Positions 1 through 29,283 of a stretch of 31,744 bases of DNA are shown here, piece by piece. Location of the stretch: the IMG/VR virus record IMGVR_UViG_3300037042_004100, positions 1 to 31,744 of that record. One strand, given 5' to 3'. Within the stretch, counting starts at the first letter, position 1, and each line of letters begins with the position of its first letter. Both the position numbers and the translations under genes were made by a program. The DNA comes from a virus. Below the pieces are notes generated by a model. It made no database searches and had not been told where the DNA came from. It worked only from the letters and a program-made list of their open reading frames with translations.

Positions 1-33
1 ATTGGATTGATGCTGTTGCCGTAACTTGTTCAC

Positions 34-395
34 CGTCGCTCAGGTTGGCACCGCTCAGGTAGGCACCGCTCAGGTTGGCACCGCTCAGGTTGGCATCGCT
101 CAGGTTGGCACCGCGCAGGTAGGCACGCTCAGGTTGGCACCGCTCAGGTTGGCATCGCTCAGGTAGGCACCGCTCAGGTAGGCACCGCTCAGGTTGGCAC
201 CGCTCAGGTTGGCATCGCTCAGGTAGGCACCGCTCAGGTAGGCACCGCTCAGGTTGGCACCGCTCAGGTTGGCATCGCTCAGGTTGGCACCGCGCAGGTT
301 GGCACCGCTCAGGTTGGCATCGCGCAGGTTGGCACCGCTCAGGTTGGCATCGCGCAGGTTGGCATCGCTCAGGTTGGCATCGCTCAGGTTGGCAC
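34..395. repeat. 15-bp tandem repeat array coding pentapeptides
   Basis: About 24 copies of a 15-base unit (ggca[c/t]cgctcaggt[t/a]) run head to tail. Each codes one A(N/Y)LS(G/D) pentapeptide on the minus strand. Units differ mainly at two positions, which swap G/D and N/Y. One unit lacks a single base and shifts the reading frame. Such uniform repeats are prone to slippage and to recombination, so copy number may vary between relatives. Confidence 0.95.
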
Positions 396-474
396 GTTCT
401 CCCGCCGGATCCTTGTTCAGCCACTTGCGGTGACGTTCAAGGATTGCGGGAAGGTCTTGGGATGTAATGGTCAT
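100..474 (-). CDS. pentapeptide-repeat protein, frameshifted, really continues past the left edge
   Basis: The protein starts with a short helical header (ILERHRKWL) followed by about 18 pentapeptide repeats of the form A(N/Y)LS(G/D), the family signature that folds into a right-handed quadrilateral beta-helix. The ATG at 474 is preferred over a GTG at 480 because GGAG lies five bases before it. A single base is missing from one repeat at about 121-128 (aggcacgctc where the other copies have aggcaccgctc). This throws the frame and adds a short unrelated tail (VPTCAVPT) before a stop at 100. If the base is restored the repeats continue to about position 34 and read on into a different C-terminus (DGEQVTATASIQ) that leaves the window. 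This is either a sequencing error, slippage within a repeat, or phase variation. Pentapeptide proteins include gyrase-protecting DNA mimics, but nothing here fixes a function. The gene is the last of its operon seen here and has its own promoter-like motif at 501-529. Confidence 0.85.
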
Positions 475-500
475 TTTCACTCCGTGTTGGCTGCGTCCAT

Positions 501-9250: not shown

Positions 9251-10558
9251 TTATTGCCCTACCAGACTTTGAACAAGGCCAAGGGAGTCAGTCCGCCCGC
9301 CAGTCAATGCCACCTGTTGGGCAGCATATTGGCCAGACAGGGAATTGATGCCGTTGGTAAGCCGGTCAAAGGCTCGCCACAAAGGGCCCTGTTCATCAAG
9401 GGCCTGCTTTAGGGCCTCTAGTTTTGTTGAGTTTTCCCGGTAGGCGTCGGCCTGCAAGTTGATGAGCGGGTTTTGCACGTCGATAAATTGCCGGGTCAGG
9501 GCCTCGATGGAAAGCCCCAGGTTGCCCTGTTCGGCAAGACCCGTGCGCGCCTGGAGCGCCCGCCCGGCGCGGATGTCGCCCGCCACAGAGGAACCCGCTA
9601 GGTTAGCCTCACGCCGTGCGACTTCCTCAGCGGTGACGCGGCGGGACTCACTGACGGACAGGGCCCGGCCGATAGCTACGTTGCCATCACCGCCACGGAA
9701 CCCAACGTCCTGAAGTTGCTTCACGGCCTCTTGCAGCCCGGTACCGCTTAGGGTCGCCAGACGGCGGGCTGCTTCCACGATCTGCCGGGTTGCGTCAAGG
9801 CCACGGCCCCCGCGCTGGGCATCAAGGACCGCGCCTTGTGTGTCGGTAATGCCAAATGAGGTTCCACCCTTGGCCGAAACTGCCGCATCCTTGGCTAGCT
9901 TGGCGAAGGCGGGGCCAAGGGATTCTAACCGCAGGAGGTTAGCCCCCTGGCCTTCTAAGGCACGGACACCGCTCTGCGCCTTCATGTCCCGGGCGGTCCG
10001 GTCCATGGCGGCTTCCTTGACCTGACCATCGACCCTGGCGAGGGCCAGCCGGTTAGAATTGGCCAGGATCCCGTTGAATAGCTTGAGGGTCGCGCCAACG
10101 GCTACGGCCCCAGCGGCCAGGGCTCCGAAACCAGCGCCAAGGGCCCCGACCTCGCCAAGGCCGGAAGCCTGACCGATGGCCCCGCCGAACTTGCCGACAG
10201 ACCTAGCGATCCGCGCCCCGATGGACTTAGACGGGGCGTTAGCGGCCTCTGCAACCTTAGCCGCCTGCTGCTGCGCCCGCTCCTGCGTTTTCTGGTCTAG
10301 CTGCTGCGCCCTGATAGCGGCCTCTGCTTGCTTCTGGCGATACTGCGCGGCCTTAAATGGGTCCAGCTTTGACGATGCCCCAGCCTGACCAAACGTGGGG
10401 ATTCCGGCCTTGGTCTGCGCCTTGTTGGCGGCCTCGGTCGCCTTCTCGCGCAACTTCTCAGACTTAGCGACTTGGTCCGACTTTTTAGCAAGGTTGTCCA
10501 AGCCCTTTTCGGCCTGGGCTTGGCCGATCATTGCTACCGTAAACTCAAGGTCTGCCAT
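9251..10558 (-). CDS. tape measure protein
   Basis: The tape measure sets tail length and passes into the host membrane on ejection. The 435-aa product starts with a short beta segment and then a long Lys/Ala/Gln-rich coiled coil (about residues 15-115, EKLREKATEAANKAQTKAG and AAIRAQQLDQKTQERAQQQA). A Gly/Ala-rich hydrophobic stretch follows (about 128-168, GALGAGFGALAAGAVAVGA), then more helices. This is the expected architecture, and it sits just after the chaperone frameshift pair. At about 1.5 angstrom per residue it predicts a tail of roughly 65 nm, short for a siphovirus. ATG 10558 has CGGAG seven bases upstream. Confidence 0.85.
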   Translation of the reverse strand: MADLEFTVAMIGQAQAEKGLDNLAKKSDQVAKSEKLREKATEAANKAQTKAGIPTFGQAGASSKLDPFKAAQYRQKQAEAAIRAQQLDQKTQERAQQQAAKVAEAANAPSKSIGARIARSVGKFGGAIGQASGLGEVGALGAGFGALAAGAVAVGATLKLFNGILANSNRLALARVDGQVKEAAMDRTARDMKAQSGVRALEGQGANLLRLESLGPAFAKLAKDAAVSAKGGTSFGITDTQGAVLDAQRGGRGLDATRQIVEAARRLATLSGTGLQEAVKQLQDVGFRGGDGNVAIGRALSVSESRRVTAEEVARREANLAGSSVAGDIRAGRALQARTGLAEQGNLGLSIEALTRQFIDVQNPLINLQADAYRENSTKLEALKQALDEQGPLWRAFDRLTNGINSLSGQYAAQQVALTGGRTDSLGLVQSLVGQ

Positions 10559-11734: not shown

Positions 11735-12333
11735 CCCACCCTCAGATTTCGCCCCAAGCTTACCGATAGGAAACGCTGCATCACGGCGATCATCTTTGCG
11801 CGGTCGGCCATATTCGGCTTGACCGGTTCGCGCACGGGTAGGGATCCCGATCCTTCGGCGTGGTACTTCGCATACTCCGGCAGGCGGGCAAAGATGACTC
11901 GGCCCCGGTCACCGGTGGGAACGATAACCACCCGGGCACGACCAGCGGTCACGGCCTGTCGAAGCGTTCCATATCGGACAAGGATTGGGAGGTTTTTGCT
12001 GGATCCAAGACCAGTCATCTCCCCGGTGCTGCTCTGATAGGCCACGGCGGTCATGCCGGAAACCTTGCGGCCTAGTTTCTTCTGCACCTTCCGCAAGTGC
12101 GACGCATTCCCGGCCTTGGCCCTTGCGTAGTCGTACGACAGTGGTGCAAACCGGGCGTTCCCCTGCCCCTTGAAACGGTCATCAACGATCGGATCACCAC
12201 GGCCTGCAACGCCAGCGGAGGAACCCCCGGCCCCACCATTAGCGAAGGCCATGCAGCCTTGCTCAAGCATAGCGCGAAGCCGGGTCTTGGTTTGGTCAAC
12301 CTTGAGCAGCAAGCCACGGGGGTTGGCGCTCAT
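11731..12333 (-). CDS. gpG-like virion morphogenesis / tail completion protein
   Basis: The 200-aa basic protein has the pattern of Mu gpG-like morphogenesis proteins. A helical N-terminus (KVDQTKTRLRAMLEQG) is followed by a Gly-rich loop with FAPLSYDYARAKAG, then SSKNLPILVRYGTLRQAV and the late motif YAKYHAEGSGSLPVREP, close to the Y..YH..G....P.RPF signature of the family. In Mu-like phages gpG helps join head and tail or completes the tail. It follows the MuF-like gene, as in Mu (F then G), with an ATGA overlap. Start is ATG 12333. Confidence 0.7.
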   Translation of the reverse strand: MSANPRGLLLKVDQTKTRLRAMLEQGCMAFANGGAGGSSAGVAGRGDPIVDDRFKGQGNARFAPLSYDYARAKAGNASHLRKVQKKLGRKVSGMTAVAYQSSTGEMTGLGSSKNLPILVRYGTLRQAVTAGRARVVIVPTGDRGRVIFARLPEYAKYHAEGSGSLPVREPVKPNMADRAKMIAVMQRFLSVSLGRNLRVG

Positions 12334-13964
12334 ACCTGCCCCGCGAGATACGACTGCACCTGTCCCTGTGTGGCTGGCGGCAGAGACGACAGGGCCAGCC
12401 CACCGGCCTGGACCTTGGCGGCAAGCGATGCGACCTCACGGGCAGAGAGAGCCCCGGGCGGGCTGGTCATCACCTGGGACACCATGCGGACGATCTCGCG
12501 GCCATCTGGCAAACCCAGACGCTTGGCCTCCAGGAACCCCCGGGCGGTGGCCTCGGCAGGGTTGCCCCGGCTCATCACATCAGCGATGGATTCCCAGCCC
12601 GGGGCGTTGTCGTTTAGCCAGTCCTTGTAGGGCAGGCCCGGAACCGCCTCGGGATTGGCGGGAGCGGTCGGGAGGATCTGGCGAGCGACGGCCCCCGGCT
12701 TCCCTGTAGCGGCAACGTGAACCAGCGTGCAGCGGCAATTGCTTGTAAATGCACCATCGCTCACAACATGCCCGAACGGAGAACGGAAATCGTAAACATG
12801 ACCATCATAATCAAACCGGATGACCTCAACAACCTCATCAAGGATTACCTTGCCGGAGGACTCATTAATGATCTCGCTTACAAATACGGGGTTAGCGCAA
12901 ATGGCGTCCGTAAACGGCTTGTAGAGGCAGGAGTAAAAATGCGGACCAAATCCGAATCGGACCGCATCAAGGCGGGGTGTGTTGACGATATCAACTCCAT
13001 CCTCAGTGATTACGATGCCGGGGAGTCCATTAATTCCATAGCCAATAGGGTATCCATGTCCCGCCCCGCCATCCGGCGATGGCTGATGAAGGCCGGGGCC
13101 AAGATCCGAACCTCTTCTGAGCAAGAGCGAATCAAGTGGGCTTCCATGCCCAAAGATCGTCGGGATGCCCAGGTAGCGGCTGCCCACAATGCTGCGAGGA
13201 TCAAACTCAATGGGCGTCCCCTCACAGCTCAATGTTACCTTGCCGGAGCCAAGGAAAGGGCGGAATCCCGCCGAATGACCCGCTATGAGGCCTCCATCTG
13301 CAACTACCTTCTTTCCCTGGGGCTGGAAGTAATCCCCCAAAAACAGGTAGGCCCCTACAACGTCGATTTTGCCATTGATGGACTCCCCGTCGCCGTGGAA
13401 GTAATGAGGGGAGTTGCGGGCATGCGACACCGGCCCCGCATTCAAAAGCGCACGAAACACTTGCTCGGCGGTGGGTGGGCGGTGGTATTCATCTACCTCA
13501 GCCAAGGAGCCCCCAACGACCTGACGAGGATCGACAAGCACCTTGTCCCCATTGTTGATGCTGCCCGCCGCAATGAGCCCATTGCTGGTAACTGTTGGGT
13601 GATTCGCTGTAACCCGAAGCCTAGCACCGCTCTTTGTGCGGATCTCGACGGCATCCCCTTTATAGAGTGCGCGTGATGCTCCATCAAAGATGCCGGATAT
13701 AGGAGCATCAGGAAGGAAGCACCCGAAGTCCATAGGAGGGATCGGCGCACGGGGATCATCAAGCCGCCAAACGGTACCATGGAGCGCCGCATGAGATGGC
13801 CTCACCCGATCATCCGGCGTCCCAGCGGGATCATGCTCCCCGGGCCCGGTCTGGCACACAAGCTGGACAAATACGGCATCGGCATCAAGAACGCCCTGTG
13901 CCTCGGCCTCTTGCCGGGTCGGGTCGTCAATCGGTAGGCCGGTCAGTGGAGCGGCAATGGGCAT
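12330..13964 (-). CDS. MuF-like minor head protein interrupted by an intein
   Basis: MuF-like proteins sit near the portal and take part in head morphogenesis. The 544-aa precursor is an 81-residue N-extein, a 328-residue intein (residues 82-409) and a 135-residue C-extein, giving a 216-aa spliced protein. Joining the exteins restores the family signature R-P-x-H-A-A-L-x-G-x-V ... D-D-P ... P-P-x-D-F-G-C-R-C. The intein splits it immediately before the CRC motif, whose first Cys is the +1 nucleophile. ATG 13964 is chosen (GGGAAGG upstream); a TTG at 13970 is too near the SD. The C-extein beyond CRC is helical. The upstream gene may supply the helical N-terminal part of the usual MuF domain. 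A nuclease gene lies antisense inside the intein. Confidence 0.85.
   Translation of the reverse strand: MPIAAPLTGLPIDDPTRQEAEAQGVLDADAVFVQLVCQTGPGEHDPAGTPDDRVRPSHAALHGTVWRLDDPRAPIPPMDFGCFLPDAPISGIFDGASRALYKGDAVEIRTKSGARLRVTANHPTVTSNGLIAAGSINNGDKVLVDPRQVVGGSLAEVDEYHRPPTAEQVFRALLNAGPVSHARNSPHYFHGDGESINGKIDVVGAYLFLGDYFQPQGKKVVADGGLIAGHSAGFRPFLGSGKVTLSCEGTPIEFDPRSIVGSRYLGIPTIFGHGSPLDSLLLRRGSDLGPGLHQPSPDGGAGHGYPIGYGINGLPGIVITEDGVDIVNTPRLDAVRFGFGPHFYSCLYKPFTDAICANPVFVSEIINESSGKVILDEVVEVIRFDYDGHVYDFRSPFGHVVSDGAFTSNCRCTLVHVAATGKPGAVARQILPTAPANPEAVPGLPYKDWLNDNAPGWESIADVMSRGNPAEATARGFLEAKRLGLPDGREIVRMVSQVMTSPPGALSAREVASLAAKVQAGGLALSSLPPATQGQVQSYLAGQV
12738..13721 (-). mobile_element. intein in the MuF-like head protein
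   Basis: The intein is 328 residues, from Cys1 (codon 13721-13719) to the final Asn (12740-12738). Block A is CFLPDAPISGIFDGASRALY and block B is RLRVTANHPTVTSNG with the TxxH histidine. Block F is VIRFDYDGHVYDFRSPFGH and block G is AFTSN before +1 Cys. The penultimate residue is Ser instead of the common His. There is no in-frame endonuclease domain. Instead the nuclease is on the other strand (12798-13676) and covers all but the first 15 and last 20 codons. Confidence 0.88.
12798..13676 (+). CDS. homing endonuclease, Vsr/DUF559-like, antisense within the MuF intein
   Basis: The 292-aa product has two tandem helix-turn-helix modules, residues about 15-45 (INDLAYKYGVSANGVRKRLVEAG) and 68-100 (INSIANRVSMSRPAIRRWLMKAG). 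A linker and a nuclease domain of the Vsr / DUF559 type follow: TRYE (E164), YNVDF (D190), AVEV (E201), then basic residues and GWAVVFIYL. This E-D-E core belongs to the PD-(D/E)XK fold seen in EDxHD homing nucleases. Starts at 12717 (GTG) and 12768 (ATG) share the frame; 12798 is chosen because it has GGAA upstream and lies well inside the intein. Its codons lie exactly in register with the antisense intein codons, so absence of TTA, CTA and TCA codons keeps the intein open. It would cut intein-free MuF genes and spread the intein. Confidence 0.8.
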   Translation: MTIIIKPDDLNNLIKDYLAGGLINDLAYKYGVSANGVRKRLVEAGVKMRTKSESDRIKAGCVDDINSILSDYDAGESINSIANRVSMSRPAIRRWLMKAGAKIRTSSEQERIKWASMPKDRRDAQVAAAHNAARIKLNGRPLTAQCYLAGAKERAESRRMTRYEASICNYLLSLGLEVIPQKQVGPYNVDFAIDGLPVAVEVMRGVAGMRHRPRIQKRTKHLLGGGWAVVFIYLSQGAPNDLTRIDKHLVPIVDAARRNEPIAGNCWVIRCNPKPSTALCADLDGIPFIECA

Positions 13965-13966
13965 GT

Positions 13967-14584
13967 TCAAGCCTTCCCGGTTAGAGCCTGACCAACGGCG
14001 CGCACAGCGGCAGCGACCCCGGCAAGGTGGCCCTGTTCAACGGCAAAGGACAGGCGACCAGCGGAGGCATCAGCGACCCGGCCAAGCTCGGACGGGATCG
14101 ACCGTGGATCAACGGTGGTCGAGAGCGGAAGGGCAAGGGCCTGCTGAATGCCATCGCCCAAGGCGCGGGCGAGGTCCATGGCCCACTCCTCAACCGTGAA
14201 CCCCAGAACCGGAAGGCCGGATAGGTCGTCCCGGTCCTGCTCAGTCACGGTTGCAGACAGGCCAAGCGGAACCGCCCGGGTCTGGCCAGCCACAGCGAAG
14301 CCCGACACGATGGCGTCCAGGACAAGCCGGGAGGCGTCAGCGTAGGCGCGGGCTTGGTCGGCCTGGATAGCCTGCTGGACCTTGGGGTCTTGCCGGATCT
14401 TGCGGAGGTCCCGGCCCGGCTCACCCAAGGCAGAGCCACCATCGGCGGCGGCAATGGCCCCGATGATGGCTTGAGACGCGGCAATGGTCGCCTGGGATAC
14501 GTGCCCCATACCGATTGCCTTAGCCTCAGCCATGAGCCGTTGGCGGTCTTCCTCCTCTTTGGCGATGGCCTGGGAGAGATTCAT
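13967..14584 (-). CDS. head morphogenesis-associated helical protein
   Basis: The 205-aa product is almost wholly helical and Ala-rich (SQAIAKEEEDRQRLMAEAKA, VQQAIQADQARAYADASRLV, WAMDLARALGDGIQQALALP, VEQGHLAGVAAAVRAVGQAL). ATG 14584 overlaps the upstream TGA as ATGA; the frame to 14641 is shadow. It is followed within three bases by the MuF-like gene. Because MuF proteins normally have a helical N-terminal half of about this size, this gene may encode that half as a separate chain. That is an inference from order and composition only. Confidence 0.55.
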   Translation of the reverse strand: MNLSQAIAKEEEDRQRLMAEAKAIGMGHVSQATIAASQAIIGAIAAADGGSALGEPGRDLRKIRQDPKVQQAIQADQARAYADASRLVLDAIVSGFAVAGQTRAVPLGLSATVTEQDRDDLSGLPVLGFTVEEWAMDLARALGDGIQQALALPLSTTVDPRSIPSELGRVADASAGRLSFAVEQGHLAGVAAAVRAVGQALTGKA

Positions 14585-24965: not shown

Positions 24966-26366
24966 TTAGGTCAGGGGGCCGCGCGGTGGCTCGCCAATGG
25001 CCTTGATTTGCTCGGCAAGGATCAAGTCCCGTTCGCTGCCGGGCTCAATCTGGAGGGCATGGCGGGCCAGTTTCTCCCAAGCGGCAGCAACCAGGACCGG
25101 TGGGGCTCCGTTGAGTTTGAGTGAACCGGCAGCCTCCACCGCGCTGGACAGGTCCAGGGGGGCGAACTCGCGGGCGTAGTTCACGGGGTCGGCGGGGGCG
25201 AAGTTGAAGCCAGCGGCGGCGCGCTCCATGACTCGCCGTTCAAATCCCTCGGCCACTTCAGCAAGGCGCGCAAGGCGTGCTTCGATTTCGTTAAAGGCGA
25301 AGGCGCGGGCAACCCCGCTCTCAGGCTGGCCAACCTGGGTTGCGGAACCGGCGACAAGACCGGCGGATCGGTATAGCTCATTGACCTCATAGGCCAATTG
25401 TTCCCGGAGGCTCCCGGCCTGTGAAACGTCAGCGGAAAGTTTGCTTACCCCCGGCGTGGCCCCGCCCTCCTGAGGAGCAAGGCAAAGCGCCATCCCGCTC
25501 CCAATAGTCGCCTGCCCAATCGTATCCTTTGAGACGTTCGTAAAAACGTGCGTCGTGAAGGTGACGTTATGCAACTCCTCCAAGAGGAGCGTTTCCAGCA
25601 CAGCGATGCGTCGTTGACCTTCGCACCATGGGCCAGCAACCGGGGCATCATCGCTGCCAAGTTCCATCCTGATCAGCGGGCAGCCGCCGTAGGTGTGGGC
25701 AACCGGCTCCTCAACCTCCTGCACACGCCAAGAGGCCGGGTTATCCTCCTCCCCGGTAAGGTTGACGCGCTGGGTAGATTCCTCGTTGACCATCCACAAG
25801 AACGGAGCCCCGGAACGGCCCGCCATCACGATGACGGCCTCGACCACGTCATCTTCCCAGCAGCGCTCCCAGATGACCTGTTGCGGCTCAATCTCGCGGA
25901 CAATCGGGCGTGCCCCGGCTGCCTGCTCTTGGGCGGCAGTGCCGTAGACCCCGTCGGCGGTGTTGTCGATGAGCCCGTAAGCCACGCCCAAGACCATTGC
26001 GGTTGTTTCGGTGGATCGGATGACGTTGTGGATCGACTTCCCCCGACCGTTGGCATCGGCCAAGAGCAAGGACGCCATTCCCGAGGCGGTACGCTGGGGA
26101 GACTGACGGAAGACGTGGTCAACGTACCGATCAACAAGGTGACGGACCAGAGGGCGCACCATGGCCGTTTGCTTGCGCCGGGAATACCGCTTGTCCGATT
26201 CGTTCTCGTGCTTGGGCAGGATATCCGCGCCGGTCAGGTCCCCAGCATCGAAATACTCTAGGCCGGAAGCCTCGTAGGACTCCTCCCAAAACTTCCGGGG
26301 CTGGGATAGCCGCTTCCACTCTGCGGAGAGGGGGACTGGATCACCGGGGGCGAGAGTAGGGAACAC
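24966..26366 (-). CDS. portal protein
   Basis: The portal is the dodecameric ring through which DNA enters and leaves. The 466-aa product has a helix-rich start (WEESYEASGLEYFDAGDLTG, YSRRKQTAMVRPLVRHLVDR), a wing/clip beta region (VIVMAGRSGAPFLWMVNEES), and long C-terminal helices (ESGVARAFAFNEIEARLARL). The layout resembles portals of the DUF4055 kind. It lies between large terminase and scaffold. The start is uncertain: the frame is open back to the TAG of the terminase gene, with no ATG and only GTG 26366 or a CTG nearby, and no good SD. Confidence 0.8.
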   Translation of the reverse strand: MFPTLAPGDPVPLSAEWKRLSQPRKFWEESYEASGLEYFDAGDLTGADILPKHENESDKRYSRRKQTAMVRPLVRHLVDRYVDHVFRQSPQRTASGMASLLLADANGRGKSIHNVIRSTETTAMVLGVAYGLIDNTADGVYGTAAQEQAAGARPIVREIEPQQVIWERCWEDDVVEAVIVMAGRSGAPFLWMVNEESTQRVNLTGEEDNPASWRVQEVEEPVAHTYGGCPLIRMELGSDDAPVAGPWCEGQRRIAVLETLLLEELHNVTFTTHVFTNVSKDTIGQATIGSGMALCLAPQEGGATPGVSKLSADVSQAGSLREQLAYEVNELYRSAGLVAGSATQVGQPESGVARAFAFNEIEARLARLAEVAEGFERRVMERAAAGFNFAPADPVNYAREFAPLDLSSAVEAAGSLKLNGAPPVLVAAAWEKLARHALQIEPGSERDLILAEQIKAIGEPPRGPLT

Positions 26367-26393
26367 GCCCGCCAGCGTCTTGGGCGGAGCATT

Positions 26394-26417
26394 GGCGCGA
26401 ACCGGAGCGGTTTCCTA
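26394..26417 (-). repeat. intergenic 3' element, copy C
   Basis: Minus strand TAGGAAACCGCTCCGGTTCG starts at the TAG of the large-terminase gene. It matches copies A and B at most positions and keeps a hairpin (AACCG/CGGTT), with the changes concentrated in the loop. Confidence 0.5.
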
Positions 26418-28577
26418 GAGCCCCGGCAGGGCGATGGATCCATTCGTGACCGGCGGTCTGGTAACGTCCCAGGCGAGGTATCCCAAGGCGTCCAGGATAT
26501 GCCCACGATCCCCCTTATCGCCCGGGTCGTATCCGCCCGAGGTCAGAAGCTTGGTCCGCTCTAGCTCTTGGATAATCCGGGTGCAGCGGGGATGCACGAC
26601 CAACCGTCGGCGACCGTCGGCGGCACAACATAGGCGGGACAGGTTGGCGATACGGGCGGCAACCGGGGGGTTTGCCCCGGACGCGGATCCGGTGTACTTC
26701 CACCCCAGAGATTGCGCGGTCTGCTGCATCACCTTGAACTCACTGTCCCCGGTCGTGCTGCGGGCCTTGCTGCTCTTGTCCGGGTGGAGGTGGACAACGG
26801 CCCGACCCCATCCCTTGGCGTGGGCCTCGTATATTGCCGCGTCCACTGTGGTCCCGCCGGTCAGGAATAGTTCATCAAGGATCCGCACTTCACCGTCCAC
26901 GTATTGGCCAAGACACCAGCCCATGGGATCGACGTTGTAGTCGGCCCCCAGGTGCAGGGGCAGGCCCGGGGCATCGTTGAACTCTCGCACGTTGGCAAGG
27001 GCCAGGAAGCCGGGGTGAGCTCGGGATCCGCCAACGTCAACGGCCAGCCCTTCCAAGTACTGCTTCGCCACGTCAGCGGAGAAGGATGCCATCAGGGAGG
27101 CAACATAGCCCGGCGGAAGGGCCGGGTTCTTGGTGGTCAGTCCCCGGTAATATCGCCGGTCTGGCGTGGGATGGTCGATGAAGTCCCGTTGGACCCAGGT
27201 GTCTAGGCCCTCGGGAGTGGTCGTGCAGAGGAGGTGCAGACGGTGCCATGGGCTATCGGAGAAGCCACGCACACGGGACCGGATCTGCGTGGGGGCATCG
27301 CGCAAAGGGTCTTCGCTGGTCTTGATGCGCGCCGCTTCATCGACCCACCCATGGGCGACCTCAAAACCAGCGAAGCGGCGGGGATCCTCTGCCGATAGAA
27401 GCCAGATAGGATAGTCCCCCACGATGATACAGGGAACGTCAGAGCGGGATTGATCCTTGTATGGCCACCCCCATTCCGTGAGCGCCTTCATGAGGGCCGG
27501 GATCACAAAGCGGTGAAGGTCGCCATAGGTCGGGGCAATCGCCATCCCGGCGCATTGGTTGCGCTGGTGCAGCAAGAGCAATTTCCGAGCACCTGCCCAA
27601 CTCTTGCCGCTGTTGTGGTGCCATAGGCCGTTGGCTAGGTAATGGCCGAAGCCCGGAACGTTGATGTCGTAAAAAACGGAATTCGGAACGTGTTCTACCG
27701 TTGCAATCCTATCCCACCCAACTATATTAGAGCCCATGAAAGGGCTATCCCATGCCTCGCCCCCCTGGATCCCGTAACCCAAAAGCACGCCGTTGGATAA
27801 TGGAGCCTCGAATCCGTGAGCTTCATGCACTTGGCTGGACAACTGGCCAGATTGGGAGAGATGTGCAGATGCGCGGGGAGGATGTTCGACGCCTTCTTCG
27901 TGATCTCGATCTCCCGTCAAATATGCCGCATCATAGGGGAGAAAGCAACCCTGCGTGGAAGGGCGGGGTGATAATCGATAAGCACGGCTACAAATTGATT
28001 TGGAAGCCTGCCCACCCTCATGCATCTGCTTCAGGTCGAGTCCGTGAACATCGGCTTGTGATGGAGCAAGTCCTGGCGCGTTACCTTCTCCCGACTGAGG
28101 TTGTTGACCACATAAACGGGGATACTGGTGATAATAGGCCGGAAAATCTCCGGGTATTTGCGTCAAATGCTGAACACCTAAGGAAGACGCTATCTGGGAA
28201 GAAGCATAACATGTCAGCGGAGAACAGAGCAAAGCTGTCCCGGCTAGTGCGTCTTCGGAACGAATCCAGGCGGTCCCAGAATAAAACCGATGGTCAGGCG
28301 TGACCGTAACGGTTCGACCTGATTCCATGGTGAACCTTAGCATCTTGGAAACCGGGCCGACCACTGGGGGAGGGCATTGGACAACCCCCCTAGTGGTGAC
28401 GCAATAAAACGGAACAGCGGCGGCCCATAGATCGTCTATGCGCCGCTCAGTTCCATCCCCCATAGCGATGAGGGTGTCCCCAGCTAGACACCCAAGGCCG
28501 CCAACGTACAACGATTCCCCTGGTTTCATATCCCACAGAAAATCATGTTGGGCCTTTTGATTGCCGGATACCTGCAC
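26415..28577 (-). CDS. terL: large terminase subunit interrupted by an intein in the Walker A loop
   Basis: The large terminase pumps DNA into the procapsid (ATPase) and cuts concatemers (RNase H-like nuclease). The 720-aa precursor is a 29-residue N-extein ending GGLG, a 293-residue intein, and a 398-residue C-extein beginning SGKSWAGARK. Splicing rebuilds Walker A as G-G-L-G-S-G-K-S; the unspliced protein cannot bind ATP normally. Walker B is WVDEAA, the coupling motif LLCTTTPEG. The nuclease part shows GADYNVDPM, then RILDELFL and VHLHPDKSSKAR with acidic residues in the expected order. Spliced length 427 aa is usual for the family. Start is GTG 28577, the only start before an in-frame stop. 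An HNH endonuclease gene is antisense inside the intein. Confidence 0.92.
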   Translation of the reverse strand: MQVSGNQKAQHDFLWDMKPGESLYVGGLGCLAGDTLIAMGDGTERRIDDLWAAAVPFYCVTTRGVVQCPPPVVGPVSKMLRFTMESGRTVTVTPDHRFYSGTAWIRSEDALAGTALLCSPLTCYASSQIASSLGVQHLTQIPGDFPAYYHQYPRLCGQQPQSGEGNAPGLAPSQADVHGLDLKQMHEGGQASKSICSRAYRLSPRPSTQGCFLPYDAAYLTGDRDHEEGVEHPPRASAHLSQSGQLSSQVHEAHGFEAPLSNGVLLGYGIQGGEAWDSPFMGSNIVGWDRIATVEHVPNSVFYDINVPGFGHYLANGLWHHNSGKSWAGARKLLLLHQRNQCAGMAIAPTYGDLHRFVIPALMKALTEWGWPYKDQSRSDVPCIIVGDYPIWLLSAEDPRRFAGFEVAHGWVDEAARIKTSEDPLRDAPTQIRSRVRGFSDSPWHRLHLLCTTTPEGLDTWVQRDFIDHPTPDRRYYRGLTTKNPALPPGYVASLMASFSADVAKQYLEGLAVDVGGSRAHPGFLALANVREFNDAPGLPLHLGADYNVDPMGWCLGQYVDGEVRILDELFLTGGTTVDAAIYEAHAKGWGRAVVHLHPDKSSKARSTTGDSEFKVMQQTAQSLGWKYTGSASGANPPVAARIANLSRLCCAADGRRRLVVHPRCTRIIQELERTKLLTSGGYDPGDKGDRGHILDALGYLAWDVTRPPVTNGSIALPGL
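27701..27728 (+). promoter_or_regulatory. candidate promoter for the antisense HNH gene
   Basis: TTGCAA (27701-27706), 16 bases, TATATT (27723-27728) on the plus strand, 24 bases before the HNH start. An inverted repeat AGCCC-N5-GGGCT lies between it and the ATG and contains the SD-like AAGGG, so it could damp translation. Confidence 0.5.
27752..28303 (+). CDS. HNH homing endonuclease, antisense within the terL intein
   Basis: The 183-aa product has an N-terminal helix-turn-helix (about residues 20-50: IRELHALGWTTGQIGRDVQM then RGEDVRRLLRDL) and a beta-hairpin (GVIIDKHGYKLIW). The HNH core of the HNH_3 kind is REHRLVMEQVLAR with VVDHINGD (His120), DNRPENL (Asn128-Asn132) and NAEHL. The C-terminal basic segment (SAENRAKLSRLVRLRNES) resembles the DNA-binding NUMOD3 type. 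ATG 27752 has AAGGG about nine bases upstream. It lies wholly inside the terL intein on the opposite strand. It would cut intein-free terminase genes and copy the intein by repair. Confidence 0.88.
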   Translation: MPRPPGSRNPKARRWIMEPRIRELHALGWTTGQIGRDVQMRGEDVRRLLRDLDLPSNMPHHRGESNPAWKGGVIIDKHGYKLIWKPAHPHASASGRVREHRLVMEQVLARYLLPTEVVDHINGDTGDNRPENLRVFASNAEHLRKTLSGKKHNMSAENRAKLSRLVRLRNESRRSQNKTDGQA

Positions 28578-28588
28578 GGCCTAGCGCA

Positions 28589-28909
28589 TCACGCTGGGCC
28601 AATGCCGTCAGTGGGCGGTGGTCCTGGCTCAATCGGTTCGGGGATCAACTCCACCTTGCCCGACAGCTCCACGCTCTTGAGTTTGGGGTAGGCGTATTCC
28701 AGGCTCTTGCCGATGCCAGACAGGCCAGCGGAAACGAAAGCGGGGTCGCCTTTTTCCTCACCGCGCATCAGGATTCTCTGCGATGCCTTGAGCAAGGCGA
28801 TGGGCCCCGGCATGCCGAGAAGGCGTTCCATCTCCTCACGGATTGCAAGGCTGGCCTTGTTGGGAAGCCCGGCAGGACGTCCAGGGCCTCCGCGTTTCAC
28901 TTCGCTCAT
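28589..28909 (-). CDS. small terminase subunit-like protein
   Basis: The 106-aa product begins with a basic segment and GRPAGLPNKASLAIREEMERL, the common opening of phage small-terminase or TerS-like proteins. A helical middle leads to the late motif LEYAYPKLKSVELSGKVEL, also typical. The tail is Pro-rich. Small terminases recognise the packaging site and stimulate the large subunit. It is directly before terL. ATG 28909 overlaps the preceding TAA (TAATG). It is shorter than classical TerS, and the wHTH gene before it might be the true recognition subunit. Confidence 0.65.
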   Translation of the reverse strand: MSEVKRGGPGRPAGLPNKASLAIREEMERLLGMPGPIALLKASQRILMRGEEKGDPAFVSAGLSGIGKSLEYAYPKLKSVELSGKVELIPEPIEPGPPPTDGIGPA

Positions 28910-29283
28910 TACTCCACCTTTCCGGCACCAATCTTGATAGAGTCATCCGACCCCAACAGGGCACCCGTGGTGCTGTGTGGTAACGTGGAACGGTGCTCGG
29001 GGGGAATCGGCGCGGGTTCCTTGATGGCCTTGGGGGCAATGAGGATGTACGTGGCACTGGCCTTCCCCTCGCCCGTGGCGTTCCGGTATTCCGTGCGGAA
29101 CAGGTCGGAGCGCATGCGGACCCAGGCCACCAAGGCGCGGACTTCCCAACCTACGGCATGGGCTACCTCCGTTGACCGGATGGGGCCTCCACCATGGGCC
29201 GTTAGGTAAATCCAGACGTCTTTCCACATGTCAGAGCGCGCATCGGCCTTGATGGTGGCCCTGGTCTTGCCTGCGAGTTTCAT
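28909..29283 (-). CDS. winged-helix DNA-binding protein at the head of the virion operon
   Basis: The 124-aa product has a basic start (KLAGKTRATIKADARSD) and a winged-helix pattern at residues about 20-75: VWIYLTAHGGGPIRSTEVAH, AVGWEVRALVAWVRMRS, then wing LFRTEYRN...ASATYILI. A Pro-rich linker and an acidic tail follow. ATG 29283 is the first good internal start; the frame to 29340 runs into a terminator hairpin and is rejected. As the first gene before the small-terminase-like gene it may recognise the packaging site or regulate the operon. Confidence 0.65.
   Translation of the reverse strand: MKLAGKTRATIKADARSDMWKDVWIYLTAHGGGPIRSTEVAHAVGWEVRALVAWVRMRSDLFRTEYRNATGEGKASATYILIAPKAIKEPAPIPPEHRSTLPHSTTGALLGSDDSIKIGAGKVE

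Follow-up and report, generated by a model that had tools for sequence, protein, structure and literature searches.

Inteins are known as splicing domains that may or may not share their polypeptide with a nuclease domain. The terminase inteins of mycobacteriophages carry an in-frame homing nuclease domain (PMC5050341), the nuclease domains of inteins sit at a conserved site (PMC6801210), the ShiLan element holds an out-of-frame HNH on the same strand within a phage methylase, where its authors detected no splicing domain (PMC11855218), and the Didymium nuclear group I intron L2066 carries an antisense homing nuclease gene whose antisense expression and cleavage activity were shown (PMC9548176). 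Here we describe a stretch of viral DNA of 31,744 nucleotides (IMG/VR record IMGVR_UViG_3300037042_004100, referred to in its whole length as the window), in which the large terminase gene is interrupted by an intein and the intein linker carries an HNH nuclease gene on the opposite strand. This observation, made earlier in a sequence-only reading of the same DNA, was confirmed, and the interpretation offered with it is supported overall. We consider it highly probable (about 85%) that the locus is a mobile intein in which each strand carries a gene, one of these encoding an HNH nuclease for homing, and which moves and persists as a unit.

Like the mycobacteriophage terminase inteins (PMC5050341), the window intein occupies the terminase P-loop, has a Hint domain and holds a nuclease for homing between its splicing halves; whereas theirs is a domain of the intein polypeptide, the one described here is encoded by an opposite-strand gene and the intein itself has a disordered linker. 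This linker lies between the two Hint halves, as do the nuclease domains of the inteins treated in PMC6801210. With the ShiLan element (PMC11855218), the locus shares an HNH hidden in a second frame of an insertion across which the frame of the host gene remains open; it differs in that its nuclease is encoded on the opposite strand and that it has a clear Hint domain. The ShiLan HNH proved to be a distant relative of the window HNH (45% over residues 63–136), so that this group of nucleases recurs in overlapping arrangements. The Didymium element is alike in that a homing nuclease gene lies antisense inside a self-splicing element, but it is an RNA intron, which does not require an open reading frame on its other strand (PMC9548176). 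An Rfam scan of the window gave no RNA family at gathering scores, and thus no known intron family was detected. Searches of an open-access library listed no report of an intein with a homing nuclease gene encoded antisense to it, and priority is not firm.

The terminase gene (26415..28577, minus strand) is an open frame of 720 codons with a GTG start as listed, whose product matched the PHROG terminase large subunit with an E-value of 5e-25 and Pfam Terminase_6N with one of 1.9e-4, the latter below the gathering cut-off. The in-frame intein comprises 293 residues (27612..28490, minus strand), running from Cys1 (codon 28490–28488) to the last Asn (27614–27612) and followed by Ser at position +1. 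The proposal that it splits the Walker A motif exactly, between GGLG and SGKS, held to the nucleotide, and an inteinless terminase relative (locus L083), with 65% identity to the window over the C-extein, has an uninterrupted GGLGSGKS. The signature of class 1 inteins was found in the window (CLAGDTLI, TPDH, and HHN followed by the Ser), and the same residues are conserved in the relatives. Using an alignment of 42 sequences, AlphaFold2 gave a model with confident stretches at approximately residues 1–95 and 260–300: the N-terminal splicing half with blocks A and B (28212..28490, minus strand), including the TPDH of block B (28301–28290), was predicted to adopt a Hint fold mostly at a predicted local distance difference test score (pLDDT) above 90, and is separated from the C-terminal half, likewise modelled as part of the Hint fold, with blocks F and G and the HHN (27612..27728, minus strand) by a linker (27729..28211, minus strand) that is disordered in the model (pLDDT mostly below 50) and largely an antisense shadow of the HNH gene. 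In a Foldseek search the top PDB matches were the DnaB, CDC21 and RecA inteins, with E-values down to 1.5e-7, in agreement with a Hint fold, and the profile of the intein alignment also matched solved inteins by sequence. The Pfam Intein_splicing match (E 1.3e-6) reached 28.7 bits against a gathering score of 35.8, which is a detection threshold and not a biological criterion, and NCBIfam intein_Nterm scored above its own cut-off. No nuclease family was found in the intein frame with Pfam, NCBIfam or PHROG. The intact catalytic residues and the predicted fold together suggest that the intein is self-splicing, and packaging by the terminase would then require splicing.

The HNH_3-type nuclease gene (27752..28303, plus strand) is intact, encodes 183 amino acids and runs antisense to the intein, with codon position 1 of the intein paired with codon position 1 of the HNH gene. 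Its identity, as given in the sequence-only reading, was borne out by dozens of relatives and by a Pfam HNH_3 match over residues 100–136 (28049..28159, plus strand) with an E-value of 2.5e-9 and 37 bits, above the gathering score of 24.8; 13 of its 14 PHROG matches were named HNH endonuclease. In a 49-member family the HNH catalytic residues were invariant. An AlphaFold2 model from these 49 sequences reached a pLDDT of 88, and its best PDB match was the homing endonuclease I-HmuI, with a probability of 0.98 and a weak E-value of 0.11; the fold search gave no match at E ≤0.001. The splicing blocks had been taken to be free of overlap with the nuclease gene, which is wrong for block B, as the stop codon and last codons of the HNH gene lie opposite the TPDH and the residues following it. 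In many relatives the 3' end of the HNH gene extends even further.

Relatives of the locus were collected from both sides. Scanning IMG/VR with the HNH protein, and taking the best 80 of 198 relatives, revealed 60 loci out of 80 in which the HNH gene lies antisense within a long open frame (411 to 1256 codons) and invariably in one phase, and such nesting in one phase argues that the arrangement is not due to chance; in the other 20 the match contained 1 to 8 stops in this phase. The second set was obtained with a profile of seven related inteins (best 80 of 94 relatives, including some contigs already in the first set); an antisense HNH match in the same phase was present in 80/80, the intein frame was free of stops in 80/80, and one stop inside the HNH match was seen in 7/80. 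For the alignment of antisense frames (A1), eight near-duplicate loci were left out and 58 frames were aligned, among which Pfam matches at E ≤0.01 were obtained to Intein_splicing (39), Terminase_6N (27) and Terminase_3 (13). The aligned ends of the frames showed the Cys, the block-B His and the Asn before Ser, Thr or Cys, and lay mostly in P-loops. Five rows without intein blocks (L067, L068, L069, L074 and L075) were dropped before phases and stops were counted, which left 53 loci, i.e. 52 loci and the window, with one intein end absent from the contig or the alignment in four of them (L025, L026, L059 and L060). The antisense phase, position 1 opposite position 1, was identical in 53/53. 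A scan of a genome collection yielded 6 loci, 3 of them nested; being a scan with a single pattern, it says little on frequency in bacteria. As a separate observation, the 1255-residue frame of L017 (173–3937, minus strand), which holds an intein and an antisense HNH, also matches LAGLIDADG_3 close to its end, which may mark a second intein, of the classical type.

In the proposed mechanism, the minus strand would give one precursor consisting of the N-terminal part of the terminase, a Hint half, a disordered linker of ∼160 residues, the second Hint half and the C-terminal part of the terminase, and this precursor would splice itself and so restore Walker A. A separate HNH homing nuclease would be made from the plus strand of the linker; it has a start codon and, across the family, a putative promoter and ribosome-binding site of its own. 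This nuclease may cut inteinless terminase genes (empty terL) near the P-loop, and repair would copy the whole intein in. Selection in the overlap would act on the HNH protein and the intein frame there would only have to avoid stops, so that the two genes could move and persist as a unit. A possible benefit of the design is that nuclease expression is uncoupled from that of the terminase.

It could be argued that the nuclease has decayed in the window phage and that the intein alone is maintained, as truncated HNH genes do occur in two relatives, L176 (1687–2340) and L180 (2501–3142), where ∼80 linker codons are missing and the splicing blocks are kept. These two look like natural linker deletions, which suggests that splicing does not need this part of the linker. 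The window HNH, however, is full length and contains the conserved segments EHRLVMEQ, DHINGD, NRPENL and SNAEHL, and the intein frame opposite to it is still stop-free: when synonymous codons of the window HNH were shuffled, a mean of 7.46 intein-frame stops arose and 0 of 300 shuffles were stop-free, as against none observed. Decay in the window is therefore improbable.

That the HNH protein serves the terminase as a packaging cofactor instead of acting as a homing enzyme is quite improbable as well, considering that the same antisense HNH is found in inteins of non-terminase genes, namely a SNF2-type helicase (L004), a DNA polymerase III subunit (L055) and, in a contig from an Acidobacteria metagenome-assembled genome (L100), a helicase-like gene of 1478 amino acids, the identity of which was judged by eye, and that the terminase of L083 is inteinless.

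A further explanation is a split intein, with an independent HNH gene between two halves that would be translated as separate chains and joined by trans-splicing. In 2009 Dassa reportedly described genes that are interrupted by a free-standing nuclease and have split inteins, and they likewise have a separate nuclease gene between the intein halves; unlike theirs, the host frame of the window is continuous. The expected number of stops was estimated by shuffling synonymous codons within each HNH gene, over the matched part only. In 6961 codons of the 53 loci, 202.4 intein-frame stops were expected (∼3.8 per locus) and none was observed, a zero that is partly due to these loci having been chosen because their antisense frame was open; the figure without such a choice is the 60/80 given above. 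As the latter loci were found by HNH similarity alone, their openness in one phase, set against ∼3.8 expected stops per locus, is informative. The other two antisense phases of the 53 loci contained 326 and 225 stops, and Phe before Ile, Met, Thr, Asn or Lys, a pairing that inevitably creates a stop in the intein frame, was absent from the HNH proteins where 22.5 instances were expected. The stop-free intein frame in 53/53 and 80/80 loci, where many stops were expected, demands read-through translation and leaves separately made halves very improbable.

The nonsynonymous to synonymous rate ratio (dN/dS) was calculated for pairs of HNH genes with at least 70% identity, and in 11/11 pairs it was 0.10–0.23 in the HNH frame, which is thus under purifying selection, and 0.78–2.0 when the same DNA was read in the intein frame. 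A low ratio in the HNH frame only, together with the lack of intein-frame stops, indicates that selection preserves the HNH protein and that the intein frame must stay open. The intein frame across the linker had been called simply antisense sequence without stops; its passive nature was thus upheld, but not the word ‘simply’, as stops are actively avoided. The same values refute the view that the HNH frame is open by chance opposite a genuine but degenerate intein linker. We give this view practically no credence, although GC-rich genes often have long antisense frames and the window contains many, since the curated HNH_3 match, the 49-member family with its invariant catalytic residues and the confident fold also speak against it.

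A candidate promoter had been proposed for the HNH gene, and a sigma-70-like TTGCAA-16-TATATT is indeed present at 27701..27728 (plus strand), 23 nt upstream of the start codon, followed by a Shine-Dalgarno-like AAAGGG (27739..27744, plus strand) 7 nt before the ATG with 4 matching bases. The promoter was the sole candidate on either strand of positions 26300–29000, where shuffled sequences gave 1.1, and 12% of the shuffles of its upstream region scored equally well; within the window alone it does not exceed chance. The family is enriched in such signals: in 49 loci the plus-strand promoters upstream of the HNH start outscored both shuffled sequences (p 5e-6) and the opposite strand (p 1.6e-5), a score of at least 10 out of 12 was reached in 18/49 loci as compared with 2/49 on the other strand, and two perfect TTGACA/TATAAT pairs were present. 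Shine-Dalgarno matches of at least 5 bases preceded 37% of the 49 first starts and 7% of the control positions. Expression of the HNH gene from an internal promoter is thus suggested by the family as a whole.

Distances between 39 loci were correlated for HNH and intein blocks (rho 0.49), HNH and extein (0.43) and intein and extein (0.36); the partial correlations were 0.40 for HNH and intein given the extein and 0.32 for HNH and extein given the intein, and many pairs of loci were more alike in HNH and intein than in extein. On these distances the pattern is part vertical and part joint transfer. Further points in favour of mobility are the presence of the intein in P-loop genes other than the terminase, the existence of an inteinless terminase and the two natural linker deletions. 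Separately, both Acidobacteria metagenome-assembled-genome contigs (L100 and L101) were seen to carry a long frame and an antisense HNH.

Several results weigh against a mobile two-gene intein with a homing HNH. The correlation of HNH and extein distances means that part of the pattern is vertical descent, and the loci are not fully independent, with near-duplicates in the set. The flanks around the insertion site of the window and L083 share just 27/40 bases, so that L083 is not necessarily a target that the nuclease could cleave. The fold match to I-HmuI has an E-value of just 0.11, and the window promoter is unremarkable, with 1 candidate versus 1.1 expected, and its Shine-Dalgarno match is weak.

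A parallel case exists in the same window. A MuF-like gene (12330..13970, minus strand) contains a second intein of 328 residues (12738–13721, minus strand), and antisense to it lies a nuclease-like gene (12717..13676, plus strand), whose listed start is in the C-extein and which has another start at 12768, inside the intein. Its product has a helix-turn-helix and a weak MTES_1575 match below the cut-off, ‘Vsr-like’ being our own label for it. The sequence-only reading had noted that the antisense phases of the two inteins differ, and it was correct in this respect, given the one phase of the HNH gene in 53/53 loci and an in-register MuF phase, unlike that of the HNH case, in 6/6. The MuF antisense frame showed no stops in 8/8 loci, as against 58.7 predicted from synonymous choice at the GC content of its own third codon positions. 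Although a single-protein viral scan with the MuF nuclease found no relative, a search of a phage collection gave 124 records; six named phages with it were examined, and those with this design include Aaphi23, Gordonia Malisha and Salmonella W5_chr3. The L083 virus, which has no terminase intein, carries the MuF nuclease at 39% identity.

The occurrence of two nuclease types in two phases points to at least two origins of the antisense design. We regard it as fairly probable that antisense-nuclease inteins form a widespread and so far unrecognized class of phage mobile elements, with at least two origins (HNH in P-loops, helix-turn-helix Vsr-like in MuF genes), that uncouples nuclease expression from an essential late gene. 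If so, the cost of uncoupling would be ∼160–180 codons kept open on both strands. Here the two strands of one stretch of DNA encode a splicing protein and a nuclease, respectively, and constraint is measurable in both frames, which offers a clean natural system for double-strand coding. It would also explain inteins whose linker is long and disordered and which seemingly lack a nuclease, and opposite-strand genes may have escaped surveys of intein nucleases. Isolated phages with the antisense design are available for direct tests: eight records of Pectobacterium and Dickeya phages carry the region at full length with 91–100% identity. In the records of phages Ymer and Taid the region is annotated with a single hypothetical protein and without the HNH gene; both frames were read in Pectobacterium phage Ymer.

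Elsewhere in the window, ARAGORN placed a tRNA-Ala (10106–10189, minus strand) inside a long coding frame of the same strand (9251–10558), which is probably spurious, and two overlapping frames of pentapeptide-like repeats were observed at the window edge (2–480, minus strand).
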